A stretch of 53,507 bases of DNA. Source: Bacteroidales bacterium. Its GTDB lineage: Bacteria; Bacteroidota; Bacteroidia; Bacteroidales; JAAYUG01. Shown here one piece after another: positions 731 through 53,507 of the stretch. The notes under the pieces are model-generated. The model saw only the letters and a list, made by a program, of their open reading frames with translations, did not search any database and was not told the DNA's origin. The position numbers were made by a program, and so were the translations under genes. Within the stretch, counting starts at the first letter, position 1; each line of letters opens with the position of its first letter. The stretch lies in assembly GCA_012517825.1 (NCBI GenBank), contig JAAYUG010000121.1, positions 1 through 53,507 on the forward strand, written 5' to 3'.

Positions 731-1906
731 TTAATTGTTGCGATCAATGCTCTGAATAACCTTACTGCAATTCTCTTTAGTATTTGTGATAAGTACGTTG
801 GCAGCAGCAGGATTTTCTCGCATACCGGCATGGTTTATATCGTTGCGAAGATCACTGAAGTTTTTCCATAAAGCCCTCAGTTCATTCAGGTAAATGAGCT
901 TATCGGGCGTCAACCCGGAGGGTAAAGGCTCTGTATTTTTTTCATTCAATATGTCTTCGGCACATTGTCTATCATTAATCATGTGGAATTTCAGAAGAAG
1001 ACAAACTTCAGAAACAAGCAATTCTCTTGCCAGTGTAATGGCCTGCTGGTATTGCCCCGTATCGAGGTAATACTGAACAATAGCGGCCTGGGCCTTCAGG
1101 TCTTCGTTGTTTTCTTTACTAACAATCATCTCTTTGAATGTACCGGCCATCTGATCGAGTAAAGAAGCAAGGGGTCTTGCCTGCGGGATATTTGCCACAT
1201 CCTTTTTCGATTGTTCTATTGCTTCGGGCAGTTCTCTGGCTAAATCAAGAACCTTAAAAGTTCGCACCAACGAAAGGGCATCAGAAAGGTCGCCGAGCTT
1301 ATTTCCAAGGTTTTTCAACCCTTTGGGTTTATAATCTTTTTCTTGCCTGTACCAGGTATTTTGAATTTCATGGGTGATCTGTTTGAGTTGGTCGGCTTTT
1401 CCTATTTTTATAAAGTAATCGGTTGCAAACGACCAGGTAATGATGTCGAGGAAAGGGGTGAGTTCAAAAACTGGGGAAATATTGGTTTCCGTATTCCTTG
1501 CCTCATAGGCTCCGTAAAAAATATGACGGATGGTCACCTTTTTGGTTACCTTCAGGTAAACGGCAACGGCCAGTGTCAGCATGGGCAGGCTCCGGAAGCC
1601 ATGGGTTACATCGATCACCAACTCGCTGTATTCGGGGATGGAAGAGGCTATTTTTTCAAAAATTTCCCACAGCTCGTCCTCGTTTCTGCCATCGGGAATA
1701 GAAATGCATTCAAAAGAAGGGAGGGTCTGAAGTTCTTTATAGTGTGTTTCTTTTGACTTTTCCGTCATCAGAACAAATATTCTCTCAAAAGGGAAAAACT
1801 CAGAAAGCGCTTGAATTATAACCCGAACCGGAACTGATTTTTTTCCATTCCATTCATAGATGGTTTCATTATAATTGCCTGTGCCGACAAAGGAAAGGAG
1901 AATCAT
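731..1906 (-). CDS. Csx1/TM1812-type CARF-HEPN ribonuclease
   Basis: This 391-residue protein is an ancillary effector of the type III system. The N-terminal CARF domain begins MILLSFVGTGNYNET and carries D99-V-T-H-G-F-R105 followed by SLPMLTLAVAVYL, the loop that in this family contacts cyclic oligoadenylate. The C-terminal helical half ends in a HEPN domain with the RNase motif R354-N-D-I-N-H359 (R-x4-H). By family knowledge, ligand binding activates nonspecific RNA cleavage during phage infection. It starts 5 bp after the csm5 stop, so it is the next gene of the csm operon. The specific ligand (cA4 or cA6) cannot be read from the sequence. Confidence 0.88.
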   Translation of the reverse strand: MILLSFVGTGNYNETIYEWNGKKSVPVRVIIQALSEFFPFERIFVLMTEKSKETHYKELQTLPSFECISIPDGRNEDELWEIFEKIASSIPEYSELVIDVTHGFRSLPMLTLAVAVYLKVTKKVTIRHIFYGAYEARNTETNISPVFELTPFLDIITWSFATDYFIKIGKADQLKQITHEIQNTWYRQEKDYKPKGLKNLGNKLGDLSDALSLVRTFKVLDLARELPEAIEQSKKDVANIPQARPLASLLDQMAGTFKEMIVSKENNEDLKAQAAIVQYYLDTGQYQQAITLARELLVSEVCLLLKFHMINDRQCAEDILNEKNTEPLPSGLTPDKLIYLNELRALWKNFSDLRNDINHAGMRENPAAANVLITNTKENCSKVIQSIDRNN

Positions 1907-1911
1907 ACGAT

Positions 1912-3048
1912 TTATTTAATACTAAGCTTAATAAACCCCATTGGCATAAAATGAAAGCCTTTATCCTTTAAATTTCTAAAGACGATTTTGCGGGATTTAT
2001 AAGCAGGAGGCTTACCCTGTGAAGGAGCCAAATAGTGGTTGTCAGGAAACTTCCAGTTACCGGTAATTCCGTGAAAACCTGAACCAAAGCCCATATGAAG
2101 CAGGCATTCATTGCTTTGCTCAGGAATATAATCTAAAAGGTCATCAATCGATTGAATAATCAAGCCGGTATCACTTTCGTCATCATCATAATGTTCAAAA
2201 AAATTCTTTTCAGCAAGCAGATAACGGCGTGTATGCTGATTAATCAAACCAAAAATGGCCTGCAATGTATTTATATTATTAAAAGAGGTAAAATGCTCCG
2301 GGGTCCTTCTATTCCTGCTGAGATAATCGAAACGTTCGTTTTTAATGCGGATAAAGCCACTGGAAATAGAATTTGTTGGAAATGTTTCGCAACAAATAAC
2401 AAAACCCTTCGATGCAAATTTAGGTCCTGAGGCCCTGCGGTCATGTTTCCAACCAGCCCTATATTCTCCTTTGTCATTGATTAGATTAAAAGTTTTTATT
2501 TTATCAATTCGTGATTTTTCAAAACTAAAATCGCCCACCTGAAGCAACGACATCAGGTTGTTTTCAATAGGGCCGAGCAGAATTTTTTCATCAGGGGGGG
2601 CATTTTTTCTATTGTTGTTATTGTTCCTATTATGCTGTTCATACAAATGCGTAATGATTACAGAACGGATAGCGCCTTTAAGAGAAGAACCGGGAATATA
2701 AGGGATTCTTTTATCTCCGGCAGGAATGGTGGTAAGGGGCAAAATCTCTTTTTCAGGCTCATAAGAACAATCAATCTTAGCTATTTGAAAGTCCTCAGGT
2801 TTAATCTTGCGGGTATTCAGCAGGTAGTTGCCAAATTTATCGGTCTGACCCGAAGAAAGCAATGAAAGAAATGCTGCCCGCTCGTTTTCGCTGAGCGTTT
2901 GAAAGATTTTCGGAAGATCAACAATAATGATCTTCTTTTCACCTTTTACATAAAAGAAATCAATGTCCTTAACCAGTTTCTTTTCCTGTCCTGCACCGAC
3001 GTGTACAGGGGTTATTATTTTTGCTTCAACCGTATAATTCATAATCAT
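1912..3048 (-). CDS. csm5: Csm5, type III-A RAMP subunit
   Basis: This 378-residue RAMP protein caps the crRNA 3' end of the Csm complex. It starts MIMNYTVEAKIITPVHVGAG, the usual Csm5 beginning, has IPYIPGSSLKGAIRS near residue 115, and ends with the glycine-rich stretch GFGSGFHGITG typical of RAMPs. A second ATG at 3042 would give an equally good start. It sits 3 bp downstream of csm4 and 5 bp upstream of the CARF-HEPN gene. A short asparagine run (HNRNNNNNRKNAPP) lies in the loop after the first RRM core. The order csm3-csm4-csm5 matches standard III-A operons. Confidence 0.92.
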   Translation of the reverse strand: MIMNYTVEAKIITPVHVGAGQEKKLVKDIDFFYVKGEKKIIIVDLPKIFQTLSENERAAFLSLLSSGQTDKFGNYLLNTRKIKPEDFQIAKIDCSYEPEKEILPLTTIPAGDKRIPYIPGSSLKGAIRSVIITHLYEQHNRNNNNNRKNAPPDEKILLGPIENNLMSLLQVGDFSFEKSRIDKIKTFNLINDKGEYRAGWKHDRRASGPKFASKGFVICCETFPTNSISSGFIRIKNERFDYLSRNRRTPEHFTSFNNINTLQAIFGLINQHTRRYLLAEKNFFEHYDDDESDTGLIIQSIDDLLDYIPEQSNECLLHMGFGSGFHGITGNWKFPDNHYLAPSQGKPPAYKSRKIVFRNLKDKGFHFMPMGFIKLSIK

Positions 3049-3051
3049 TCA

Positions 3052-4056
3052 TTATTCAGTTCTGCAGGGAATAAAAAATCCAAGGCCGACCCGGTAAACC
3101 GGATGTTCGAGCTTGCGGGGCGTTTGCAATGGAGTAATATCGGCATTTTTCCCGGAAACTGATACCGATGGCTGATTGAGTAAGAATATGGAACCTTCAG
3201 TAAACATGTAAATTGAGCGTTTCCGGTACGACAGGTATGGTTCGCTGATCCATCCCCCTCTTTTAATGAACTGATATCTTGCCTTATCATCGAGCATGGA
3301 ATTCAGTTGTTCAAAATTTTCAGGGCAGAACAGGGAAAGGGAAACCGCATGGGAGGCATTTTCAGGGAAATTGAAAGAAAGTACACCATATTCGGCAGTA
3401 AACCTCCCCATACCTACCGAACGGTCTGTACCCAGTCCTTCATCCTGAAGAAGGTCAAGGGCTGTCTTTACCCGACTTTCCCATTTTGCATCAAGATAGT
3501 GAACAAGGCAGAAAAGCCCTGCATGGGGTTTAAAGAGGGTTTTTTCCACATAGAAGGGCCGCGTGTCTTCCCTGTCATCCCTGGGCCTCATGATACGAGG
3601 AACAATATGTTTTTCCGATAGGGGGAAAAGTTTTTCGTCAAGACTTTCCGACATAAACTGCCCATGGATATGCCTGTCATCAGTAACATCAATCGGCTGT
3701 TCGAGCCTCTGAGCAAAAAAATGCTGGTCGTAATAGGCTACCTTCTTGAATTTCTTCACCAATTCCTGGGGCAGTTCATTGCGGGTTTTGTCTTTAACGA
3801 TTTTGGGAAAGAAATAAACGAATTCTGAATCATTTTTCTTAACAAAGGGAAATAAGCTGGTAATGGCAAAGCATGCACCGGGTTTTTCCGCAAATTCTGC
3901 AATCCATTGGTTTTTCCCCAGCATAGCCCACATATGGATGATTGCCGAGTACAGGGTATCGGAACGAATACCAGCTTCACCTTTTCCGTAATCACCACGT
4001 GCCGTGCTTATATGAACCGGTTCAATGAACCGGAAACGTATTACCTTAAAATCCAT
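3052..4056 (-). CDS. csm4: Csm4, crRNA 5'-handle binding RAMP
   Basis: This 334-residue RAMP protein sits at the base of the Csm complex, where the family holds the crRNA 5' tag and contacts Cas10. It begins MDFKVIRFRFIEPVHISTA and has the Csm4-typical SDTLYSAIIHMWAMLG near residue 33, GLGTDRSVGMGRF as the glycine-rich loop near residue 213, and a C-terminus reading HPVYRVGLGFFIPCRTE. It lies 4 bp after csm3 and 3 bp before csm5. No lost motif is apparent. Confidence 0.92.
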   Translation of the reverse strand: MDFKVIRFRFIEPVHISTARGDYGKGEAGIRSDTLYSAIIHMWAMLGKNQWIAEFAEKPGACFAITSLFPFVKKNDSEFVYFFPKIVKDKTRNELPQELVKKFKKVAYYDQHFFAQRLEQPIDVTDDRHIHGQFMSESLDEKLFPLSEKHIVPRIMRPRDDREDTRPFYVEKTLFKPHAGLFCLVHYLDAKWESRVKTALDLLQDEGLGTDRSVGMGRFTAEYGVLSFNFPENASHAVSLSLFCPENFEQLNSMLDDKARYQFIKRGGWISEPYLSYRKRSIYMFTEGSIFLLNQPSVSVSGKNADITPLQTPRKLEHPVYRVGLGFFIPCRTE

Positions 4057-4060
4057 TGTT

Positions 4061-4741
4061 TTATACTTCAGAATACGACTTTATATCTTTTTTTTCAATA
4101 GAATCCCAATTGATATGAAACTTAACCTGGCCATAGCCTCTTGAGCCGCTGCCCCCAAGATAGTCGTCTTCGAGAAGTTTGATTCCTTTCTTCAAAAGGC
4201 TGAGGAAGTTCTTCTCATTTTCCAAGGCTTCCTGTTCGTCACCATCTCTGGTAATAATGTTAATAATCATTTCCACATCAAATTGGGCTCCGGCCGGAAT
4301 TCGTTCAATTTGCCTCGGATGTTCAGCAGTACCTTTGATTCTGTTGATAACATTTTCGAATTTCAGTTCAGTAAAAGGCATGTCAGTAAATTCTGATTTG
4401 GACAACTTTTTTGCCCATTCATCAGTAAGATAGGAATCCCGGAAAATAATGCGGGAGGGAAGGCCGTCATCTCCGGCAGAACCAAATAAGTAAGGAATAA
4501 CGCATCCATTGGGATACCTTCTGAAGCTGCTATCTGCATTTACACCTTCGGCAATTTCGAGCAAGGAGCGTATTTTCCCCTTAAGGGAACTTCCCGGAAT
4601 ATAGGGTTGGTTATCATCTTTCCGGCGCACAACGGGCGCATCAACGCCTCCAATTTCAACATTTTCCTTGCTATCCCCAATATGAAGACCGGTTAACAAT
4701 TCGATTCGGCCTTTAATAATAATTTTTTTATGCAGTTTCAT
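4061..4741 (-). CDS. csm3: Csm3, backbone subunit and target-RNA endonuclease
   Basis: This 226-residue RAMP protein forms the repeated backbone of the complex and cuts bound target RNA at 6-nt intervals in studied homologues. Visible landmarks are GRIELLTGLHIGDS at residues 11-24, the catalytic-loop aspartate D34 in GGVDAPVV, PYIPGSSLKGKIRSLLE at about 46-62, and the C-terminal glycine-rich segment GGSGSRGYGQVKF. D34 aligns with the active-site aspartate known in other Csm3 proteins, so RNA cleavage should be intact. The length is normal for Csm3. Confidence 0.94.
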   Translation of the reverse strand: MKLHKKIIIKGRIELLTGLHIGDSKENVEIGGVDAPVVRRKDDNQPYIPGSSLKGKIRSLLEIAEGVNADSSFRRYPNGCVIPYLFGSAGDDGLPSRIIFRDSYLTDEWAKKLSKSEFTDMPFTELKFENVINRIKGTAEHPRQIERIPAGAQFDVEMIINIITRDGDEQEALENEKNFLSLLKKGIKLLEDDYLGGSGSRGYGQVKFHINWDSIEKKDIKSYSEV

Positions 4742-4769: not shown

Positions 4770-5138
4770 TTATTTACCTCCTTGTGCTTTATGATAGGCA
4801 ACAATTGCTTCAACTACATTTACAAAGTTTCTAAACTTTTTCTCATCTTCTCCAATATTGCGAATTAAGGGAGATAAAGCTTCATAGAAATCTTTCAATT
4901 TTGTATTTTTCTCATCTTTACCGACGGCATAAGCTAATTTTGGTTCGAGCAAAAGGATTTCTCCCTTAAGGTGCTCAAAATCAGCCTGAATTCTTTTTAA
5001 TGCTCCAAAAAACCGTCTAATTTGCGAAGATGTAATAGGATTACGTGTATCCCTTCTAGCCAGATTACGACCAAACTCTTCAATAGGTTTAAGGTCCTTA
5101 ATCCCGTTTTCAAGAATTTTAAGATCTATTTGTGCCAT
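4770..5138 (-). CDS. csm2: Csm2, small subunit of the Csm complex
   Basis: This is a 122-residue, mainly helical, charged protein between cas10 and csm3. The family signature is visible as SSQIRRFFGALKRIQADFE (about residues 38-56) and LLEPKLAYAVGKD (about 63-75), with a C-terminal helix ending EAIVAYHKAQGGK. Csm2 lines the inner filament alongside the crRNA-target duplex. It starts 15 bp after the cas10 stop and ends 28 bp before csm3. Identification rests on the motifs and on its fixed operon position. Confidence 0.9.
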   Translation of the reverse strand: MAQIDLKILENGIKDLKPIEEFGRNLARRDTRNPITSSQIRRFFGALKRIQADFEHLKGEILLLEPKLAYAVGKDEKNTKLKDFYEALSPLIRNIGEDEKKFRNFVNVVEAIVAYHKAQGGK

Positions 5139-5153
5139 ATGCGAGATATTTAA

Positions 5154-7829
5154 TTAGTTTGTTTTCTCCTTTTCATTACGCAGAGCTAACTCTGCCCAGC
5201 GGCAGGCCACGGCAAAGGCTTCGAAGCGCATGCGTTTTTCATTTACATGGGCAAAAATAATCTGCTTCAGTTCTTCGAGGGCCTCGTTTGCACCGGCGTT
5301 TTTATCCTCTTTAAGATTTTTCTGCCTCCGGGCAATGTTGTAGGCTGCCTGCCACTTCCAGTTATGGTATTCCTTATCATCTTTTGTATTGTATTTCCAT
5401 GCTTCGTAATAACCGATCAGTTGCATAAGAAGGCCTCTGGTAATGGATTCATCCCTGACCCAATGGACAAGTTTTTCTTTCAGATTTTTCACCTGGGGCC
5501 ATTCATGATCCCAGTTCAGAGGAACGCCAAGAAAGCACAAAGCATTTTTGAATACTACTTTACCATTTCCGGTGTCAATCTTATGTTGTTTAGCTTTCTC
5601 TTCCGCCTCGCCGGATTTTTCAGCGCCTTTGGCTACAGGGAATTTTGCTCCCACCAGTTCAATGCCTGCGGAAAGGGTAATATCGTCGCGAGCAGCGAAT
5701 TTTCTGAATTCTGAGCGTACATCTTCGGCAAAAGCAATTACTTTTTCCCAATATCCCAGGGCAAAAACATCATCACCGCCCGAATAAAGAATATTTACAT
5801 CCTCTTTATATTTTTCGCGCAGGGTATTGATGTAACCACTAAAAAACAGATCGAGGAGATTGGAGAAGGTAGCATAAGCTGAAAAACTTGCCAGTTCTGT
5901 AGGTTTTTCGTCATCGGTTAGTCCGTAACGGAAAAGGGATCCCAGACCATCAACATCCATCCTTAAAATGGCAAGACGTTTAAAAGGATACCTCCCTTTG
6001 TTGCTTCCTTCAATATAGCCGGCAAGGTATTCAAATGTGGCGGGGGTATTTTTATCTTCCATAGCTACCTGTGATCCGCCGAAAAAACGGAACCCAAGGG
6101 CCTGCCTGTTTCCAGCCGGCACGTCAAAGAGGGAAACTTCGTCATGTACAGTTTTCAGTATAAGTGCCTCATCGTATGATGATACATTTTCATTTTTTGC
6201 AATATGGAGTTTGCTGCCACCGGGCAAATCGAAATAACCCTCTGCCTTTGTTGCGGATGTAGGAAATGCAATAAAATTATGATGAACAAGTTGCTTTCCG
6301 ATTTCAATCTGCTGATGGACTTCCGGTGAAATTACCGGGGCCTCAGCATCGTAGTTTTCTGCTTTTGTTTTGTATGACCAATCTCTCTTCTCTTCATTGA
6401 ACTGATAATAGGCTTTACCGTGACCAATTTCTTCGCCGGTTACACTGCAAACAAGGGAATCTCCTCCTTCGCCCGATGGTTCAAAAAATTCGGCAAATCG
6501 TTCTCTGGAAGCAATAATGTGCCTGAACCGCCGGGCTTCATGCCTGGTCATTTCCTCAAAAAGCGCATTCCATAATTCACCAAGGCTTACATTTTCAGAA
6601 TGGCCTTCAATACGGATATTTTTTTGATTGGCCTCCAGCTTATTTTTATAACGGAATGCTACCATTCCCATATTCAAATAAAGGCGCCCACGGTGTTTTT
6701 CCCACAAATCATCGAGTATACCGATGTAAAAATCTTCGAGGTATTTTTTTATGATGGGGATGTTGGGTAAAAGCATATAGAACTTTCCACCGCTGGCATA
6801 AATTATATGGGCAGGCGTAAGTTTCAAAGGTGCTTTGTTGATAATTTGCCATGCCAGAGCCTCCAATGTCATCTGGAGGTAAAAGGATCTTCCCCTGAGG
6901 CTTTTAGCGGCATTGGCTGAAGAAATATTGTACAGATAATCCTGAATACCCGATAAATCAAATCCAGCAATCAAAAGAGGGAAAACATTTTCGTCCAATT
7001 CCACCTGATAGCCCTTAGGGGTAGTATTGGTTCTGAAGCTTTCAGGTTTATCCTGGTAAAAATCAAACAAGCACTGGGCTATAGCCGCTGTTACTTTGGA
7101 ATGTTCAAAAAGGCTTATGCAGGGATGGTTATCCTGGGTAAAGGAAGGAATACACCAGGTATATTTTTTTAATAAATAATAGAGCGTAATGGAAAGGCCT
7201 CTGTAATCAAAAGAACGCTTTTCCAGTTTTTCCAAATCGGCAATGAATTCCTTCCAATGTTTTCTGTAGAGCTCTGTTGAAAGCTTAGTTTCATTGGAAT
7301 AATCGGAGGGCATAATATCGTGGGCATGAAGGGATAGCGGTCTTAATCTGAAGACAGACTGACGGCTTGCAGTCTGAAAAGAATTGTCGCTTTGTTTTAC
7401 TCGCAAGGCGCACAATATGTTGTTGAGAGGAATTTCCCTGAAGCGCAGTTCACTTTTTTCCAGCTGAGGATCCTCAAAAATACCCATAGAAGATCTGTCC
7501 ATTCCACTAGCCCACCAATCGGCTAACTGAACAATAGCCGCTTCGGGGTTATCAGGCCTGTGATGGTAAACCGCCGCATGAACTATATTCGAAAGCTGAT
7601 CCTTCGAAATGAACCGGAGAAAGATTTGTTGGTTTTTTTCAAAAAATTCGTTGGTCCAAACCACATGCTGATGAGAAGGGAATCCATTATGCTCAGGACA
7701 AATAATTTCTGCAAGTTTTTTGGATTGTTCACTGAGCTCATTTTTGTCGTTCAAAGCCCCATCAGCACGTTGATAGAATTTGCCAATATCGTGCAAAAAA
7801 GAACCAAGATACAATTCTTCGCGGGTCAT
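5154..7829 (-). CDS. cas10: Cas10/Csm1, HD and GGDD active sites present
   Basis: This 891-residue large subunit has both activities expected of Csm1. The N-terminal HD nuclease domain has LGSFLHDIGKF with H13-D14. A first palm-like domain follows (FDLSGIQDYLYNISSANAAKSLRGRSF, split here at about 290-315). A zinc-binding linker (CSVTGEEIG) comes next, and the second palm domain carries YSGGDD with G684-G-D-D687. An intact GGDD predicts cyclic oligoadenylate synthesis on target RNA binding, which would supply the two adjacent CARF proteins and possibly the CARF-sigma54 regulator at 11786. It starts 1 bp after the cas6 stop, so it is tightly coupled to it. Confidence 0.96.
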   Translation of the reverse strand: MTREELYLGSFLHDIGKFYQRADGALNDKNELSEQSKKLAEIICPEHNGFPSHQHVVWTNEFFEKNQQIFLRFISKDQLSNIVHAAVYHHRPDNPEAAIVQLADWWASGMDRSSMGIFEDPQLEKSELRFREIPLNNILCALRVKQSDNSFQTASRQSVFRLRPLSLHAHDIMPSDYSNETKLSTELYRKHWKEFIADLEKLEKRSFDYRGLSITLYYLLKKYTWCIPSFTQDNHPCISLFEHSKVTAAIAQCLFDFYQDKPESFRTNTTPKGYQVELDENVFPLLIAGFDLSGIQDYLYNISSANAAKSLRGRSFYLQMTLEALAWQIINKAPLKLTPAHIIYASGGKFYMLLPNIPIIKKYLEDFYIGILDDLWEKHRGRLYLNMGMVAFRYKNKLEANQKNIRIEGHSENVSLGELWNALFEEMTRHEARRFRHIIASRERFAEFFEPSGEGGDSLVCSVTGEEIGHGKAYYQFNEEKRDWSYKTKAENYDAEAPVISPEVHQQIEIGKQLVHHNFIAFPTSATKAEGYFDLPGGSKLHIAKNENVSSYDEALILKTVHDEVSLFDVPAGNRQALGFRFFGGSQVAMEDKNTPATFEYLAGYIEGSNKGRYPFKRLAILRMDVDGLGSLFRYGLTDDEKPTELASFSAYATFSNLLDLFFSGYINTLREKYKEDVNILYSGGDDVFALGYWEKVIAFAEDVRSEFRKFAARDDITLSAGIELVGAKFPVAKGAEKSGEAEEKAKQHKIDTGNGKVVFKNALCFLGVPLNWDHEWPQVKNLKEKLVHWVRDESITRGLLMQLIGYYEAWKYNTKDDKEYHNWKWQAAYNIARRQKNLKEDKNAGANEALEELKQIIFAHVNEKRMRFEAFAVACRWAELALRNEKEKTN

Positions 7830-7830
7830 A

Positions 7831-8598
7831 TTATTCCTTGTTAATCGTATTATTCATCTGAAACACAATTCCATAGCCGAGGCTGACGCTTTTTCCCAGC
7901 CCTATATAGTTGGGCAGGAAAACGTTGGTAGTAAATACCAGGTTGAAACCTATTACTTTTTTCCCCTTGAGGGTAACCGGCCGAAGGCTTTCAATCTGTA
8001 CGATGTGTGTGTTGATGGGCCGGGTAACATCCCAGTTGATGCCTTTGGCAAATGAAAGGATGTTTCCGGTTAATTTCCTTTCGAGGTAAGATATTTTTTC
8101 TGCGTCTTCGGGCAGGTTAAGGTATTCGCGGTAGTTTTCCTGGTTGAGGGCTATCCAGTTGTTCACGCGGTAGGTAAAGTTTTTATCCCACACCTGGATA
8201 GTAAACTGGTTCATCAGCAGGCGGGCAATTTTCATTTCGAGCCAGCGGCCGCTGATATGTATGCTCCAGTCGCGGTTTTCGAAATAATTGTGAATTTCGT
8301 CCACACCGTAATCGAGGCAAACAATAGCCGGATGCCTTCTGATGCGTTTATACTGTATAAGCGGATAGCGGTAAAGGTATTTCTGTTCGTTCAGGTGGTT
8401 ATGAAAGAGGATGTGTTCCCGGCCGGCCTTGGCGATGACAGCCCCCCGGAAAGCCGGGATTTCGTGTGCTTCAATTTCATCGGCGAATTCAACCAACAAC
8501 ACACGAAGGCGCTGGAAGGGCTCTCCCCTGGGAGTTGTGTACACTTCTCCGTTTTCGGTTATCAGCTTTTCGTTATCTCTGCCTGGACTGCCCATCAT
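7831..8598 (-). CDS. cas6: Cas6 family pre-crRNA endoribonuclease
   Basis: This 255-residue protein is the crRNA-processing nuclease. The C-terminal part contains VFLPNYIGLGKSVSLGYGIV, the glycine-rich loop that marks Cas6. The N-terminal part (HEIPAFRGAVIAKA, then LYRYPLIQYKRIRRHPAIV) resembles the Cas6b branch of Bacteroidota and archaea. A catalytic histidine cannot be assigned by eye. It is the first gene of the cas6-cas10-csm run. The ATG at 8598 is chosen, and a second ATG follows directly at 8595. Its presence implies a CRISPR array elsewhere, since none is in the window. Confidence 0.88.
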   Translation of the reverse strand: MMGSPGRDNEKLITENGEVYTTPRGEPFQRLRVLLVEFADEIEAHEIPAFRGAVIAKAGREHILFHNHLNEQKYLYRYPLIQYKRIRRHPAIVCLDYGVDEIHNYFENRDWSIHISGRWLEMKIARLLMNQFTIQVWDKNFTYRVNNWIALNQENYREYLNLPEDAEKISYLERKLTGNILSFAKGINWDVTRPINTHIVQIESLRPVTLKGKKVIGFNLVFTTNVFLPNYIGLGKSVSLGYGIVFQMNNTINKE

Positions 8599-8715: not shown

Positions 8716-9693
8716 TTACCCTGCCTGATTTTTGGATGATGAAAAAGCGAATATTTTCTCGATCTGTTGTTTCTTTATTTCCATCTGGTTACGGACCAGG
8801 CAATCGTAATCGCTTTCGCCATCGCCGGCTTTATTCACCAGCACAAACAGCTCAATGGACAGAAACAACAGGAAGAAGAAGAACCATACAAAAAGTCCGG
8901 CTAAACTTTTCATTAACAACATAATCAAGGTGTCAATTTCATCAATCAATCCCGATTTTGACCGGAGGTCCGATTCGATTTCGCTCCGCATGTTCAGGAG
9001 GGTTTTTTCCTTATCGGCTTTTTGTTCGCGTAAAGCAGTAAGTTGCTGGTCGAGTCGGGTTACCTGGTCAATTTTTGGATTGGGCACGGCCTGGTTGACA
9101 ACATTCCGGCTGGCAGGGACCAGATTTCCTGCACTGTCTTTTTCGAAAGCCGTATTGATGGTAGGAAGGAAAATGCGGGGATTTTTGCTGATTTCAGACA
9201 GAAGCACTGCCCGTTCCGTTTCGCGGGCAATGATAAGGGTATCGAGCTGTTTAATCTGTGAATCGATTTGCCGGGTTTTTTCGGGCAAAATACGGTTGAC
9301 TTCTTCCTGGATTTTGCTGATCTGCATTTTTTCGATATCGTCGCTAAATACAATCTGGTCGGTTATGATAGCGCCAATCAGCGCCATAACAAAGCCTACA
9401 CAGATGCGGAAAAAGTAACTCCACTTGTTGCGTTTTACGGAAAGGATTATCTGACGCTCGATCTGAACTACAATAAACATCATGGCCCCTGCAAAAGCAA
9501 TGGCTGAAGGCATAGAAAGATGGAGGTACCGGCGGGCAAAAGCGTATCCGATAAAACCCCAGACGATGCATACCACCAGTATGGCAGAAAAGTATTTGAT
9601 GACGGTTTTTGCCGTAGCTTCACTGCATTGGGTAACCAGCCGGTAATTGTGCCCGGTAAAAAAGCACCCCGATTTTAGCCAGAAATTTCTCAT
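8716..9693 (-). CDS. DUF4407-like membrane protein with long coiled coil
   Basis: This is a 325-residue protein. Three hydrophobic segments lie near residues 30-53, 60-82 and 92-115. A charged coiled coil of about 130 residues follows (EKMQISKIQEEVNRILPEKT through QQLTALREQKADKEK), then a strongly hydrophobic segment near 255-285 (LAGLFVWFFFFLLFLSIELF) and a charged tail. This layout and the QIERQIIL stretch after the second segment fit the DUF4407 family, whose function is unknown. It is the last gene of the five-gene cassette facing the CARF-sigma54 regulator. A membrane-perturbing or scaffold role in defence is inference only. Confidence 0.75.
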   Translation of the reverse strand: MRNFWLKSGCFFTGHNYRLVTQCSEATAKTVIKYFSAILVVCIVWGFIGYAFARRYLHLSMPSAIAFAGAMMFIVVQIERQIILSVKRNKWSYFFRICVGFVMALIGAIITDQIVFSDDIEKMQISKIQEEVNRILPEKTRQIDSQIKQLDTLIIARETERAVLLSEISKNPRIFLPTINTAFEKDSAGNLVPASRNVVNQAVPNPKIDQVTRLDQQLTALREQKADKEKTLLNMRSEIESDLRSKSGLIDEIDTLIMLLMKSLAGLFVWFFFFLLFLSIELFVLVNKAGDGESDYDCLVRNQMEIKKQQIEKIFAFSSSKNQAG

Positions 9694-9726
9694 AATGAAG
9701 TGTTTAATTGGATAAATTTTTATTGG

Positions 9727-10326
9727 TTACTGATCAAAAATATCTTCCGACAGATCAGTTTCATCGGACAGCAGGGTGGAACGTGAAATAGCTTCCAGGC
9801 CGCGTCGGAAGCCTTTTTCGTAGGCCAGTTTAATTTTAAGTGGCATTCCGACCATTTCTACAGAATTGATGCCCATTTCCTTCACCTTTTCATAGGCATT
9901 GCGAATGACATTCTGTTTGGCACGCAGTTCCTCCACCAGGTCCATCAGGCCGGCCCTGCCGCGTGTAGCAATATGAAAATCATATTTTTGCAGTTCTGCC
10001 TCGTACCAGGAGCAGGTCTTCTGAATGAGCATCCGCAGGTCGTGCATAATAAGTTCCACATTATCGGCCATGTGTTTCATGTCGGGCGTGGCCAGGGCAT
10101 CCTCGTACCCCCGGATTTCAAAATCGGTTTGCAAGAAATCGTAGATGGCTTCAATACCTTTTAATTCGGCCACAGGCTGAGGTTTGGGTTCTTCAGTTTC
10201 AGGGATGCAGGGGTCCCGGTCATCCACAAAGAGGGAGCGGGAAACCGGCACATCCTGTTTGCCAGCAGTATCAGGCTGAAGCTGTTGCTGCTTTTTGCCA
10301 AATCGGAAAAAATCTAAGAAACTCAT
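9727..10326 (-). CDS. Unrecognised cytoplasmic protein of the CARF-sigma54-linked cassette
   Basis: This is a 199-residue protein that I do not recognise. It has no signal peptide or membrane segment. The first 55 residues are a low-complexity, proline- and glutamine-containing linker after MSFLDFFRFGKKQQQ. The rest is predicted helical, with a patch of interest at LIQKTCSWYEAELQKYDFHI and a basic segment KIKLAYEKGFRRGLE near residue 170. The C-terminus is acidic. It starts 19 bp after the HNH gene and ends 33 bp before the DUF4407 gene, so all are likely co-transcribed. Confidence 0.72.
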   Translation of the reverse strand: MSFLDFFRFGKKQQQLQPDTAGKQDVPVSRSLFVDDRDPCIPETEEPKPQPVAELKGIEAIYDFLQTDFEIRGYEDALATPDMKHMADNVELIMHDLRMLIQKTCSWYEAELQKYDFHIATRGRAGLMDLVEELRAKQNVIRNAYEKVKEMGINSVEMVGMPLKIKLAYEKGFRRGLEAISRSTLLSDETDLSEDIFDQ

Positions 10327-10345
10327 AGTGGTTATTGTTTAGTTA

Positions 10346-10621
10346 TTAAATGTATTTAACAGGTACTGCATACAAGGCATGTCCTTTCTGGTGGCATGCT
10401 TCGCAGAGGGTAATGAGGAGTTCGTCGCTGTAATCCCAGGGATCTGCATAGCGGTTTTCGGCCTGCAGGTAATGGTACTGGCGATGATGCACCTGAAGGT
10501 TTTCGTTGCTGGAGCAATTCAGGCAGCGAAAACGGTCGCGGATCAGGATCTGCTGGCGCCGCTTTTCCCAGCGGGCGTCATTCAGTTTTTCTCTGTACAC
10601 TTCTTCTGTAATTTGCTTCAT
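10346..10621 (-). CDS. Small HNH endonuclease-like protein
   Basis: This 91-residue protein carries a complete zinc-HNH fold signature: C33-x2-C36 in FRCLNCSS, H45-H46 in LQVHHRQY, and C73-x2-C76-H77 with H81 in LITLCEACHQKGH. The N-terminal 30 residues are basic (NDARWEKRRQQILIRDR). HNH proteins of this size act as DNA nucleases or nickases in defence and phage systems. The substrate here is unknown. Its start lies inside the end of the preceding gene, a 44-bp out-of-frame overlap that suggests translational coupling. Zinc ligands and the HH pair are intact. Confidence 0.82.
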   Translation of the reverse strand: MKQITEEVYREKLNDARWEKRRQQILIRDRFRCLNCSSNENLQVHHRQYHYLQAENRYADPWDYSDELLITLCEACHQKGHALYAVPVKYI

Positions 10622-10958
10622 AGTGGCAATATTTATTGATTAAATCGTTCCATACTTCATGTGCAATGTGTGGTGAAGGGTTAGCCGACAGGAAATATTC
10701 CAGATTATCAGAATCTTTAAACTGAAAAAACGTAGCCCCTTCAACCCGCAACTTTTCGTCCACAGCAAGTTCAAACAACATCCGGAAGGAACCCAAAGCC
10801 CAGCGCTGATACCATAATATTATTTCCATAATTTCGGCTTCGTCATTTCCGGGGTCGATACAATACATGTTCCAGATGATTTCGATGCCCCAGTTGGACA
10901 TGTCGTCTTCATCGAAAAATGTTTTCCGGCTCAGTATGTATCGTTTCATTATCATCAT
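10578..10958 (-). CDS. Unrecognised 126-residue protein
   Basis: This is a small acidic protein rich in aromatic residues (NWGIEIIWNMYCIDPGNDEAE split, YQRWALGSFRMLFEL, AHEVWNDLINKYCHYEANYRR). There is no signal peptide or membrane segment. Several ATG codons near the start (residues 1, 2 and 4) are possible. The 3' end overlaps the HNH gene by 44 bp, so the two may work as a pair, for example a nuclease and a partner or immunity protein. That pairing is inference from the overlap alone. Confidence 0.68.
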   Translation of the reverse strand: MMIMKRYILSRKTFFDEDDMSNWGIEIIWNMYCIDPGNDEAEIMEIILWYQRWALGSFRMLFELAVDEKLRVEGATFFQFKDSDNLEYFLSANPSPHIAHEVWNDLINKYCHYEANYRRSVQRKTE

Positions 10959-10982
10959 TGTGTTCTTTTATGTTTTTTTAAA

Positions 10983-11018
10983 GTGCCTGCACCCCCGGCG
11001 GTGTGAAGGAGCAGGCAC
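10983..11018 (-). other. Intercistronic stem-loop in the cassette
   Basis: GTGCCTGC and GCAGGCAC form a perfect 8-bp stem around a 20-nt loop that can fold further (CACC/GGTG). It lies between the first and second cassette genes. On the minus strand only TTT then A-rich DNA follows, so it is a poor intrinsic terminator. An attenuator or RNA-processing/stability element is more likely. Confidence 0.55.
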
Positions 11019-11043
11019 CGGACAATTTCCCTTCAGGAATCCC

Positions 11044-11586
11044 TTACAGGGAAGAGAGGATTACGAGAGCCACCCAGGCCGCCCATCCGATAGCGGCATT
11101 CCCCACATTGATCCCGCGTGCTTTTTTCTGATAACAGGAAAGGTACTCGGGATCGCCAAAAAGCTCCTTGTTTTTTGACATCAGCATGGTTTGACTTCCC
11201 GTAGCAGGGGTAGGGCTTGATACAGCGGCTCCGATCACGGCAAAGGGACCAAAAAGTACCCCCAGCACCATATGAAGCCCTGCCTTCCCATGGTAATTCT
11301 CGGCATCCTGCTTGCCTTTAAGGCATGCATCAGGGTCGCCGGCCATGGTCGTAAGGTAATCAAGGTACACCCTGTCGGAGGGGTTTTCAAAAACAACCGT
11401 AAGGATGTCTGTTGCGGGAATTTCATACATTCTGCCGCGGACTTTAAATGCCACACTGCATTTTTCCACCCGCTTAACCTTGCCCTCAAACTGCATTCCA
11501 TTGGCAAGGGTAATCAGATCGCCTGCCTGAACAGAGCCGGCCGCGATCAGAAGGATCAGAAAAAACAGAGTCTTTTTCATATGCAT
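11044..11586 (-). CDS. Exported/membrane protein, first gene of the cassette
   Basis: This is a 180-residue protein. Starting from the second ATG at 11580 gives a clear signal peptide (MKKTLFFLILLIAAGSVQA). The mature part begins with a short beta-rich module (LITLANGMQFEGKVKRVEKC, then VRGRMYEIPATDILTVVFEN). Two hydrophobic stretches follow near residues 105-127 and 162-180 (WAAWVALVILSSL at the very end). I do not recognise the family. It is the gene nearest the divergent -24/-12-type promoter, so it would be the first product if the CARF-sigma54 protein activates the cassette. Confidence 0.72.
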   Translation of the reverse strand: MHMKKTLFFLILLIAAGSVQAGDLITLANGMQFEGKVKRVEKCSVAFKVRGRMYEIPATDILTVVFENPSDRVYLDYLTTMAGDPDACLKGKQDAENYHGKAGLHMVLGVLFGPFAVIGAAVSSPTPATGSQTMLMSKNKELFGDPEYLSCYQKKARGINVGNAAIGWAAWVALVILSSL

Positions 11587-11615
11587 GGAATTTAATTGGT
11601 TAGCGTTACTATAAA

Positions 11616-11631
11616 CTCAATCCATGTGCCA
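11616..11631 (-). promoter_or_regulatory. Putative sigma-54 (-24/-12) promoter for the cassette
   Basis: The minus strand reads TGGCACATGGATTGAG. Against the consensus TGGCAC-N5-TTGCW the -24 half is perfect and spacing is correct. The -12 half is TTGA instead of TTGC. It predicts a start near 11605, about 20-25 nt before the candidate start codons of the first cassette gene. The adjacent divergent gene encodes a sigma-54 activator, which makes the match meaningful. Confidence 0.55.
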
Positions 11632-11684
11632 TAATAATCTAAATATTTGTCGGTCAAATCTTTAAACAATTAACACTTTTGTTT

Positions 11685-11737
11685 GAATTTCATTTTTTGA
11701 AATTATTTTCCGTCTGAATTGTCATTTTTTGATATTC
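11685..11737. promoter_or_regulatory. Pair of similar palindromes, candidate activator binding sites
   Basis: Site 1 (11685-11705) is built on AATTTCA-TTTTT-TGAAATT, a perfect inverted repeat. Site 2 (11716-11737) is GAATTGTCA-TTTTT-TGATATTC, imperfect but of the same design. Centres are 32 bp apart, about three helical turns, and fall at roughly -90 and -122 from the predicted sigma-54 start site. Position and pairing fit upstream activator sites for the Fis-type HTH of the divergent regulator. Confidence 0.5.
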
Positions 11738-11785
11738 CATTAATGAATTTTTGAAAATGTTGTATTTTGGTTAAAAATTCGGGGT

Positions 11786-13231
11786 ATGGAAAAAATTCTC
11801 ATTTCATGGATTGCCCGTACGAATGATTTCGCAAAGAACAGGGTCAGGGAAGACGGACCAACAATGTGTTTTCACCGTTTTCACTGGGATCATTCCTTTC
11901 ATGTTCTTCTGGCTGCCGAAGCAGATAAGGATCTTCAAAAGCAGCTGGCGGAGAGGATCAGAAAGGAGTTCGGCCATAAGGTGGAAGAAGTAACGTTGCC
12001 TGTGGAAAATGTTTTAGACATCAAGGAAATAAAAGGTAAGACAGAAAAAGTTCTGATGCAGTACCGGCATCATATTGTTGACATATTTGCTTCGCCAGGC
12101 ACATCGGCCATGCAGGTGGCATGGTACATCTGCTATACCACACTCGGGTTAAAGGGTCGGTTTTTGCAAACCCGTTCGCCGAAAGATTCAAAATCAGGCA
12201 AGTCGGAATTATTTGCCCTTAAGTTCGAGAAATCGGAGCAACCGCTGTCAATGATGATTTTTGAGGAAGAGATCAGCAAGCCTGCTGAATTAAAATCGGC
12301 TGAATCGGTTTGTCTTACGCCCGCTTTAAAAGAACTGCGGAAAAAAGCCCTTCCGGCGGCCATGGTTGATGTTCCGGTTCTGATACTGGGAGAAACCGGA
12401 ACAGGAAAAGAACTTCTGGCAAGGTATATACACGATCAAAGTTACCGTAAGAATAAAAAGATGCTGGCCTTTAACTGCTCGGCTATCGGGCATGAACTTC
12501 TGGAATCACGTTTATTTGGATATAAAAAAGGGGCTTTCACGGGAGCCGAAAAAGATACGCCGGGCTTGTTTCATGAAGCCAACGGAAGCACAATTTTTCT
12601 TGACGAAATAGGCGATATTACGGCCTATACACAGAAGAGCCTGTTGCGGGTATTACAGGAGAAGGAGGTTCTGCCGGTCGGCGGCAGGAAGCCTGAACAG
12701 GTTGATGTACGGGTTATTGCAGCTACCAATAAAAACTTGCGGAAGTTATGCGAAGAAGGCAAGTTCCGCTGGGATCTGTATTACAGGCTGGCCATAGTGG
12801 AGCTCATTATTCCCTCTCTTGCCGAACAGGGCAGAGAGGCTATTGAAACGATGCTCCGGTTCATGCTGGAGCAAACAGCCAAAAAGTATAAAAAACCGGT
12901 TTTAAAAGTGAATCCCGATGCTCTGGCTGGGCTTCTCTCCTACCCCTGGCCGGGAAATATCAGAGAAATGGAAAATCTTGTCAACAATTTTTACATATAC
13001 TGCGAAAAAGAAGTCCGGCTCAGTAACCTGCCCAGATACATTCTGGACCAGCAGACAGGCCCATCGCTCTCAATGGAATATGTTGAAAAGCAGCATATCA
13101 TAAAGGTACTGAATTATACCGGGGGGTCACGTAAAAAAGCCCTTAAGTTGCTGGGCTACAGGTCGTACAACACCCTGCTCAGTAAAATCCGCAAATACAA
13201 AATTGATGAAATCATTCCTACTTCGGAATAG
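11786..13231 (+). CDS. CARF-like/sigma-54 AAA+/Fis-HTH transcriptional activator (RtcR-like layout)
   Basis: This is a 481-residue bacterial enhancer-binding protein. Residues 1-170 look like a CARF-type Rossmann domain: opening strand KILISWIAR and the ligand-loop motif S103-P-G-T-S-A-M109 followed by QVAWYI, the equivalent of the GT-x-x-M loop of other CARF proteins and of the loop in RtcR. The sigma-54 AAA+ domain follows with Walker A GETGTGKE (202-209), the sigma-54 contact loop GAFTGA (249-254), Walker B LDE (D273-E274) and R-finger region. The C-terminal 45 residues form a Fis-type HTH (IIKVLNYTGGSRKKALKLLG). No rtcA/rtcB RNA-repair genes are nearby. It diverges from the cassette at 8716-11586 and lies beside a cOA-producing type III locus. 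The ligand is inferred, not shown. Confidence 0.88.
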   Translation: MEKILISWIARTNDFAKNRVREDGPTMCFHRFHWDHSFHVLLAAEADKDLQKQLAERIRKEFGHKVEEVTLPVENVLDIKEIKGKTEKVLMQYRHHIVDIFASPGTSAMQVAWYICYTTLGLKGRFLQTRSPKDSKSGKSELFALKFEKSEQPLSMMIFEEEISKPAELKSAESVCLTPALKELRKKALPAAMVDVPVLILGETGTGKELLARYIHDQSYRKNKKMLAFNCSAIGHELLESRLFGYKKGAFTGAEKDTPGLFHEANGSTIFLDEIGDITAYTQKSLLRVLQEKEVLPVGGRKPEQVDVRVIAATNKNLRKLCEEGKFRWDLYYRLAIVELIIPSLAEQGREAIETMLRFMLEQTAKKYKKPVLKVNPDALAGLLSYPWPGNIREMENLVNNFYIYCEKEVRLSNLPRYILDQQTGPSLSMEYVEKQHIIKVLNYTGGSRKKALKLLGYRSYNTLLSKIRKYKIDEIIPTSE

Positions 13232-13330: not shown

Positions 13331-13498
13331 ATGGCATATAAAATTAGCGAAGACTGCACAGCATGTGGTACCTGTATTGATGAATGTCCGGTGGAAGCTA
13401 TTTCTGCAGGCGACATTTACAAAATTGATCCGGAAGTCTGTACCGATTGCGGTGCATGTGCTGATGTTTGTCCGGTCGAAGCTATTCACCCCGAATAG
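13331..13498 (+). CDS. 2[4Fe-4S] ferredoxin
   Basis: This 55-residue protein has two canonical cluster motifs: C9-x2-C12-x2-C15-x3-C19-P and C37-x2-C40-x2-C43-x3-C47-P. It is a clostridial-type low-potential electron carrier of the cytoplasm, the usual partner of pyruvate:ferredoxin oxidoreductase and of energy-converting hydrogenases such as the one at 24425-36901. It has its own -7 element upstream and a strong terminator downstream, as expected for an abundant small protein. The start is the first ATG (AGTTATGGC context). Confidence 0.95.
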   Translation: MAYKISEDCTACGTCIDECPVEAISAGDIYKIDPEVCTDCGACADVCPVEAIHPE

Positions 13499-13514
13499 TC
13501 ATCCTCTGGATGCG

Positions 13515-37337: not shown

Positions 37338-37938
37338 GGTTGTAATGTTTGTCGGACATTTTTCTTTTTCTGTTCGCCATTCGCCATTTGCTTTTCGCTG
37401 TTCGCCGTTCGCTCTTCGCTTTACGCTCTGCGCTTTACGCTGGAACTTTGGAACTCTGGAACTCTGGAACTCTGAAACTCTGGAACTCTGGAACTCTGAA
37501 ACTCTGGAACCTTTCTACCCCGACCTACTGACCTTAATCCCCTAACGGGGAATTTGATTGGATTTGATCACCGTTTCTATTGCCGTTCATCTCCTAACGG
37601 GGAAATGGAAAGATCTTTTGCCATTCACTTCACGCTCTACGCTAAATCAACAATGCTCTGCCCTCTAAACCCAATACCCCTCTTTACGCTCTACGCTTTA
37701 CGCTCTACGCTATATCAAAGGAACTCTGGAACTCTGAAACCCTGGAACATTGAAACGCTGGAACCTCATTAGTGGGAAATCGAAAATCACTGAAAATTTC
37801 CTGTTTCCTATTTCCAATTTCCTGTAAGTGAGCACTCTATAAATCGGGAATTCTTATTAATAGGAAATGGTAAATCGGAAATCCTTGAAACTCTGGAACA
37901 TTGGAACCCTGGAACTCCGGATCTCTGCCAAATTTCTT
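37338..37938. repeat. Degenerate repeat island A
   Basis: This 600-bp gap has no credible gene. It is built of short words: TTCGCC and TTTACGCTC (period about 7), an 8-bp tandem GGAACTCT/GAAACTCT array (37442-37512, about nine units), two CCTAACGGGG mini-hairpins (37539-37550 and 37591-37602), and a composite unit at 37781-37850 containing CACTGAAAATTTCC, TTTCC words, then AAGTGAGCACTCTATAAA. The same blocks recur in the same order in island B. Confidence 0.8.
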
Positions 37939-41025: not shown

Positions 41026-41776
41026 TTTGTTCAGTTTACGATTAAACGAAGTTACTCATTTTCTTTCAATTCATTACAAAGACAGGTTTACTAAGGATGG
41101 ATTTTCCCCTTTGGCCCCTGAAGAGGAAATGGAATGTTTTTGGCTATTCATTTTTCGCCGTTCGCCTTTCGCCAATTGCAATTGGCTTTACGCTCTATTC
41201 TCTACGCTATTGCTAATCCTGCACTTAAATATCTCAGATCAAAAATCACCGTAAATTTCCTATTTCCAATTTCCTATTTCCTGTCCTTGAACACGCTATA
41301 AAAACCAGAACACGTTAATGGGAATTGGGAAATGGGAAATCGGAAATCCCTGAATATCTGGAACTCTGGAACTTTGGAACTCTGGAACTCTGAAATTGAG
41401 CGTAAAGCGTAAAGAAATGGCGTTCATCAGTTATTCTAAGCTTAAAGTTCTACCCATTTGTTTATTCGAAACTAGAAAATCTCAAATCACAACTCAAAAA
41501 TCACGACTCACAAATACCAAACCCCAAAGCCCATTGCCCAGAGCCCAAATCGAAATCAACAATCGATGAACGAAAGATTTGTGATTCGAGATTTTTGATT
41601 TCTGATTTCTGATTTTCTTGATCCTGAACGAAAACAAATAAAATCTCAAATCAGAAATCACAATTCACAACTCACAAATCACAAATTAAACTTAAACACC
41701 CGAAACGCTGGAACGCTGGAACTCTGAAACCTCACCAACCCTTCCCAGGGTATGTTTCACGGATTGATGCACCTTT
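41026..41776. repeat. Degenerate repeat island B
   Basis: This 750-bp gap has no credible gene. It contains CCCCTGAAGAGGAAATGGAA, then TTCGCC words and TTTACGCTC words. A composite unit at 41237-41308 follows (ATCACCGTAAATTTCC, TTTCC words, TGAACACGCTATAAAAACC), then GGAACTCT tandem words (41358-41395), and a long stretch of AAATCACAA and CAAATC words. The block order matches island A in the same orientation, so A and B are direct repeats either side of the kinase gene. Confidence 0.8.
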
Positions 41777-53083: not shown

Positions 53084-53507
53084 GAACTTAAAAAAGGGAT
53101 TCTCGTTTCATAACGTGTTCACTTTAGGAAAATAGGAAATTTCCGAGGATTTTTGATTTGTGAGTTGTGATTTCTGAGTTGTGATTCAACAGGTTTGCGT
53201 TCCGAATCAAAAGAATCTCAAATCAGAAATCAAAAATCTAAAATCACAAATCTCACATCCTTGCCTGGATAGACCAGGCTTTATTTTCACAACGTGATCC
53301 ATTACGTGTATTCCAAATTTCCAATTTCCCATTAATGAATTTCCGATTTCCAATTTCCCATTTCCCATTAATGTGTTCAGGTTTTCATAGCGTGATCACT
53401 TGCAGAAAATTGGAAATTGGAAATTTTCGGTGAGTTGTGATTTCTGAGTTGGGATTTAATTGAACTACGTTTTAAATCAAAAAATCCCGTCCCTGGATAA
53501 ATTGGTA
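53084..53507. repeat. Degenerate repeat island C (to window edge)
   Basis: No credible gene. Units of the same family as islands A and B lie here in inverted orientation at about 53105-53158 (CATAACGTGTTCACTT ... GGAAATTTCCGAGGATTTTT) and 53378-53440 (CATAGCGTGATCACTTGCAG ... GGAAATTTTCGGTGAG). Related words lie at 53287-53340. Tracts of AAATCACAA and GAAATC words and GATTTCTGAGTTG words fill the rest. Confidence 0.75.

Follow-up and report, generated by a model that had tools for sequence, protein, structure and literature searches.

RtcR (PF06956, NF038308) combines a CARF domain, an NtrC-type AAA+ domain and a helix-turn-helix (HTH), in that order, and activates the divergently transcribed RNA repair genes rtcBA through a sigma54 promoter. 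We analyzed a regulator of the same architecture on contig JAAYUG010000121.1 (C121; 53,507 nucleotides, hereafter the window) of a 95%-complete, 3.3-Mb Bacteroidales genome (GCA_012517825.1), where it diverges from a five-gene cassette lying next to a type III-A CRISPR locus. It is probably a dedicated sigma54 switch, gated by a ligand and associated with that locus. Unlike RtcR, it scores below the RtcR profile cut-offs, it occurs in a genome with no RtcB, and its predicted targets are HNH, orphan and DUF4407 genes instead of RNA repair genes.

Several other described systems resemble this locus in part. The RtcR_PspF2 family of PADLOC, to which the full-length profile match assigns the regulator, includes close relatives that face type I restriction-modification (R-M) operons, and RtcR-like proteins near R-M systems were described by Makarova 2014 (PMC4012209); what sets the window member apart, along with three of its relatives, is a location at type III CRISPR loci. 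The RtcR homologues associated with CoCoNuT (PMC11090510) are also sigma54 CARF regulators heading a defense superoperon and have been suggested to detect RNA ends as part of an echeloned response resembling that of type III systems, but CoCoNuT is a type IV restriction system, not CRISPR, and no CoCoNuT genes were seen in the window. Csa3, a cyclic tetraadenylate (cA4)-binding transcription factor (PMC8844856, PMC8699464), ties CARF-controlled transcription to type III cyclic oligoadenylate (cOA) signaling, but through a winged HTH with no AAA+ domain or sigma54, in archaea and in linkage with type I genes. In CalpL/CalpT/CalpS (PMC11229360), a type III signal likewise leads to a transcriptional response via an alternative sigma factor, but with neither CARF nor sigma54: a SAVED-Lon protease cleaves an anti-sigma factor and so releases the sigma factor. 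Csa3 and CalpL/CalpT/CalpS are precedents for a response that the initial annotation of the window had presented as unlike the usual direct activation of a nuclease. The literature searched, which did not extend to the CARF classification of Makarova 2020 (NAR), contained no mention of type III-linked members and no description of a target cassette with this content. New here are the promoter and operators, the modular core of the cassette, and the recurrence at a second III-A locus and in two further type III linkages.

The regulator and its predicted promoter

Matches to Sigma54_activat (1.6e-63), AAA_lid_14 and HTH_8 in Pfam follow a CARF domain at residues 1-150 with the loop S103-P-G-T-S-A-M109 (SPGTSAM, 103-109), in agreement with the CARF-like loop, complete sigma54 AAA+ domain and Fis HTH that had been annotated from the sequence. 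The PADLOC profile RtcR_PspF2--CARF_AAA_HTH matches over residues 3-473 (E 6.9e-127). A structural check of the N-terminus had been proposed, and it came out in favor of CARF: for an AF2 model of residues 1-175, built from an alignment of 47 relatives (pLDDT 84), the top 50 rows of a VIA alignment were all CARF structures with Z scores of 15.6-11, among them VC1899 (15.6), Can2 (15.2), Csm6 (14.9) and Csa3 (12.5). A profile match to the Can2 structure 8bao (E 0.0028) was also found. At the level of a structure model, the CARF fold of this domain is therefore confirmed. RtcR itself was rejected as an identification, with scores of 275 bits against a cut-off of 650 for NF038308 and 13.9 bits against 23.1 (E 0.038) for PF06956. 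We also rejected a simple RtcR operon, as the initial annotation had, on these scores below the curated cut-offs and on the absence of RtcB from the entire genome; no rtc genes occur among the window open reading frames (ORFs) examined, and RtcA was not searched for genome-wide. The genome does encode RpoN (sigma54). As a separate observation, proteins of about 320 aa at L094-L105 (12/395 genomes of the phylum) combine a related CARF domain (SSGTPAMQVCW) with a C-terminal domain that lacks AAA+.

A candidate -24/-12 sigma54 promoter, TGGCACATGGATTGAG, faces the cassette 45 bp upstream of its first gene by the called ORF start, and two copies of a predicted operator dyad (upstream activating sequence, UAS), TCATTTTTTGA, lie between the regulator gene and this promoter. 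To place these elements in context, we used 55 loci with relatives of the regulator gathered from 84,980 species genomes. A divergent -24/-12 element was present in 23/53 upstream regions compared with 0.75 expected from shuffled sequences (at most 3/53 in 40 shuffles) and 1/53 in a same-strand control. The dyad TCAWWWWWTGA was found in 30/52 upstream regions against 1.2 expected, with 0-1/52 for four control dyads of like form. The tandem dyad pair occurs a single time in the whole 3.3-Mb genome, at the cassette promoter region, and the regulator therefore looks like a dedicated switch. An independent homologue at locus L044 has the tandem operator ahead of its HNH gene despite a different gene orientation. 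Conserved promoter and operator sequences thus bear out the annotated sigma54 activation of the divergent cassette as a prediction, and a dedicated sigma54 switch, whose binding and activating steps would follow from this arrangement, is well supported by them.

Some details of the promoters weigh against this reading. The window promoter carries TTGA where the consensus has TTGC, the promoter at L044 is weak, and at a further locus, L032, promoter and operator are both unclear. The sigma54 pattern alone was rejected as evidence, with 23 matches in the window compared with 29 expected; because the bare pattern is not rarer than chance, the promoter case rests on position and conservation.

We propose that the regulator would bind the two dyads at 11690-11732 and that, in resting cells, the AAA+ domain would be kept inactive by the CARF domain, as has been demonstrated for RtcR. 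A nucleotide or RNA signal arising from infection would lift this inhibition, and the AAA+ oligomer would then remodel sigma54-RNA polymerase at 11616-11631, switching on the exported protein, orphan, HNH, orphan and DUF4407 genes as a delayed second line of defense beside the immediate CARF-HEPN RNases. No sigma54 site or operator was seen immediately before cas6, the closest cas gene. The 117 bp that separate it from the cassette showed no terminator on the minus strand, so read-through into the cas6-cas10-csm operon is possible and could also raise its expression.

Linkage to type III loci and the wider family

The minus-strand operon beyond the cassette reads cas6-cas10-csm2-csm3-csm4-csm5; after it come a CARF-HEPN effector and a partial second CARF protein. 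With cas10/csm1, csm2-5 and an intact GGDD motif, it classifies as type III-A; the distance of about 6 kb that had been annotated for Cas10 holds for its GGDD motif. The window contains no CRISPR array, and Cas1 is missing from the 95%-complete assembly; array and adaptation genes may be unassembled because the contig ends inside the type III locus.

Physical association of the regulator family with type III loci is supported in four separate places: the window, genome G653, genome G141 and an Aureispira plasmid. One contig of G653 carries cas10-csm2-5-csx1-cas1-PrimPol-cas2 and terminates in a CRISPR repeat, while the contig bearing the regulator and cassette (L044) opens with the identical 37-bp repeat in 12 copies, a repeat that occurs nowhere else in that genome; the two contigs are therefore most simply one locus split at the array. 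The genes are arranged differently with respect to the cas genes than in the window, but the regulator and the HNH-orphan-DUF4407 genes are kept beside a III-A locus, and both occurrences found of this pair are next to type III loci (2/2, window and G653). In G141 (L032, 4954-13706), a relative inside a III-A locus adjoins a Csx1-type CARF gene and diverges from a helicase, four genes without family match, and then cas1, a BT4734-like PrimPol and cas2, where spacer acquisition may come under control of the same regulator. On the Aureispira plasmid (L162, NZ_CP133672.1, 4958-9449), a 41% identical relative is directly divergent from a III-B operon, cmr1-cas10(GGDD)-cmr3-cmr4-cmr5-cmr6, and the 237-bp gap contains the operator TCATTTATTGA and TGGAATGTTTATTGAT (an operator copy and a promoter-like site), so that this cas operon may itself be a sigma54 target. 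Leaving the Aureispira plasmid uncounted, the regulator is adjacent to type III in 3/53 cases compared with 0.03 expected for scattered genes.

The wider distribution of the family, which is almost entirely confined to Bacteroidota, counts on the other side. Cas10 is missing from 50/55 genomes with the regulator family and is no commoner there than in the class (25/295; Fisher p 0.79). The majority of relatives are oriented toward genes of another kind, for example type I R-M, or a reverse transcriptase alongside a DnaB-like helicase, so clustering in defense islands could explain the type III adjacency. We therefore rejected specificity of the family for type III, and in a tree of the regulators the type III-linked members were not resolved as one clade. 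We thus see the family as a general switch, found mostly at defense genes and adopted several times by type III loci. For the link to type III that the initial annotation had looked for among homologues, the result is divided: at the level of the family it is nominally refuted by the genomes without Cas10, while the specific pair of regulator and module stood up in both of its occurrences.

The same distribution bears on a simpler explanation, in which regulator and cassette form an independent inducible unit that shares a defense island with the type III locus and answers to a signal unconnected with it. The lack of genome-level Cas10 enrichment, the pairing of most family members with other genes, the R-M or BREX neighbors of relatives on other plasmids, and the occurrence of the module on its own or beside WYL regulators are all consistent with mere proximity. 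We nevertheless consider this explanation rather unlikely, since regulator and module recur beside III-A in two genomes that are distant from each other and differ in gene order, and two more linkages involve other arrangements and another subtype.

A tentative broader reading, toward which we incline a little less than halfway, is that type III systems have repeatedly recruited CARF-sigma54 activators as a transcriptional arm, driven by cOA directly or by RNA ends. With the same reserve, the targets of such an arm would be a dedicated cassette (window and G653), a cassette running into cas1-PrimPol-cas2 (G141) and the III-B operon itself (Aureispira). If true, this would give type III systems a second wave or a positive feedback.

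As a side observation, a reverse transcriptase and DnaB-like helicase pair, possibly an undescribed defense pair, lies near CARF-sigma54 genes at 17-19 loci, mostly of Flavobacteriales (L058, L063-L066, L068-L071, L074-L080, L083, L085).

Candidate signals for the CARF domain

The initial annotation suggested cOA as the ligand, which is not supported as stated given a family found mostly in genomes without Cas10. A direct switch, in which cOA made by Cas10 binds the CARF dimer of the regulator and activates sigma54 transcription, would account for the pull towards type III loci, including the III-B operon directly opposite a relative. The canonical CARF fold, nearest to those of cOA-binding Csm6 and Can2, is consistent with it, as are the intact GGDD motif 6 kb away, the precedent of Csa3 and cA4, and the alignment of G105-T106 with G113-T114 of EiCsm6, whose Thr114 is required for sensing cyclic hexaadenylate (cA6). 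However, the equivalent of EiCsm6 Gln116 is Ala108, and strand 4 is not followed by K/R, an absence also remarked for RtcR-like CARFs by Makarova 2014 (PMC4012209). The pocket is equally conserved in relatives from genomes without Cas10, and a search for pocket residues marking the type III-linked members gave six columns common to three divergent sequences, none of them convincing. E. coli RtcR, moreover, bound cA4 and cA6 very weakly and was activated by neither (PMC9650030). On balance, we regard direct sensing of cOA as doubtful.

RNA ends appear at least as likely a signal as direct sensing, though we hold this alternative, too, as only a possibility. Here an activated Csx1/Csm6-type HEPN RNase, or a phage or host RNase, would produce the signaling ends, and the type III response would reach the cassette indirectly. 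RtcR, the nearest studied sigma54 CARF protein, oligomerizes upon binding tRNA halves with a cyclic phosphate end (PMC7790460), and the same signal has been proposed for the RtcR homologues linked to CoCoNuT, where HEPN RNases would generate it (PMC11090510). This route accounts for the regulator family in genomes without Cas10. In the window, the CARF-HEPN gene at 731-1906 has an intact R-x4-H motif, and its product, a conventional cOA-activated RNase by its domains, is a possible source of 2',3'-cyclic phosphate ends. On the other hand, RtcR activation also requires contact with RtcA/RtcB protein, of which RtcB is absent from this genome, and in vitro tRNA fragments failed to activate the full-length E. 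coli protein (PMC9650030); the CARF domain of the regulator is also only distantly related to that of RtcR by the PF06956 score.

Through a dedicated switch driven by either signal, type III CRISPR might be connected to the sigma54 activator machinery, with promoter, operators and target each pinpointed. Because the cyclase (Cas10), the HEPN RNase (Csx1) and the sigma54 CARF protein stand in a single locus, the choice between cOA and RNA ends is answerable by single mutations.

The cassette module and other features of the window

All five cassette genes are present where they had been annotated (Table 1), transcribed in the order exported protein, 126-aa orphan, HNH, 199-aa orphan, DUF4407. 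The last three form a conserved unit that recurs in other genomes. The HNH protein scores below threshold in Pfam (E 0.0042), yet its CxxC...HHR...CxxCH...H set is present and kept in relatives. For the DUF4407 model, no PDB match was found at E <= 0.001, only weak long-helix matches. No relative of the regulator CARF domain or of a cassette orphan was confirmed in viral contigs, and no DUF4407 relative was found in phages.

In G653, the unit lies downstream of the homologous regulator (49% identity) and on its strand, and the gap between them holds the tandem operator. The three genes occur together without CARF-sigma54 in G466, G414 and a Persicobacter plasmid. A WYL protein is directly divergent from the module in G414, with reverse transcriptase and AAA defense-type genes close by, and another stands ahead of an orphan-like/DUF4407 pair in G127, near a type III cas1-PrimPol-cas2 locus; it is as if CARF-sigma54 and WYL regulators had been exchanged beside the module. 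The unit therefore looks like a module often, not always, paired with a ligand-sensing regulator, and would be defined as one with exchangeable regulators of either kind. A defense function of the module is likely, and the cassette may be antiviral; a point against this is that the module flanks examined in G466 and the Persicobacter plasmid hold ordinary metabolic or envelope genes. WYL/WCX regulators adjoin the unit or its two-gene version at L154 (10359-11366) and L155 (7947-8948).

Table 1. Positions of the regulator, predicted promoter elements, cassette and type III-A genes in the window.
Feature	Position	Strand	Evidence or remark
CARF - sigma54 AAA+ - Fis HTH activator (RtcR_PspF2-type), 481 aa	11786..13231	+	Pfam, PADLOC, structure model
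Predicted operator dyad, copy 2	11722..11732	.	32 bp from copy 1
Predicted operator dyad, copy 1	11690..11700	.	conserved dyad
Candidate sigma54 -24/-12 promoter	11616..11631	-	conserved position in relatives
Exported/membrane protein, 180 aa, first cassette gene	11044..11586	-	not found in other cassettes
Orphan, 126 aa	10578..10958	-	not found in other cassettes
HNH nuclease-like protein, 91 aa, core module	10346..10621	-	motif conserved in relatives
Coiled-coil orphan, 199 aa, core module	9727..10326	-	conserved neighbor in module
DUF4407 membrane protein, core module	8716..9693	-	E 7e-38; predicted transmembrane helices and long coiled coil
cas6	7831..8598	-	profile match
cas10/csm1, HD domain and intact GGDD	5154..7829	-	TIGR02578, 2e-161; SGGDD
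csm2	4770..5138	-	profile match
csm3	4061..4741	-	profile match
csm4	3052..4056	-	profile match
csm5	1912..3048	-	profile match
CARF-HEPN effector	731..1906	-	TIGR02221; HEPN motif RNDINH
N-terminal part of second CARF (Csx1-like) protein, truncated by contig end	1..561	-	34% identity to G653 CARF-HEPN protein

An Rfam scan of the window gave no matches. Directly after the regulator, positions 13332-13499 (+) encode a small ferredoxin-like protein with two CxxCxxC-type cysteine clusters, and intergenic tandem arrays with units of 7, 8, 14 and 21 bp occur at 37366-37764, 41254-41686 and 53148-53369.

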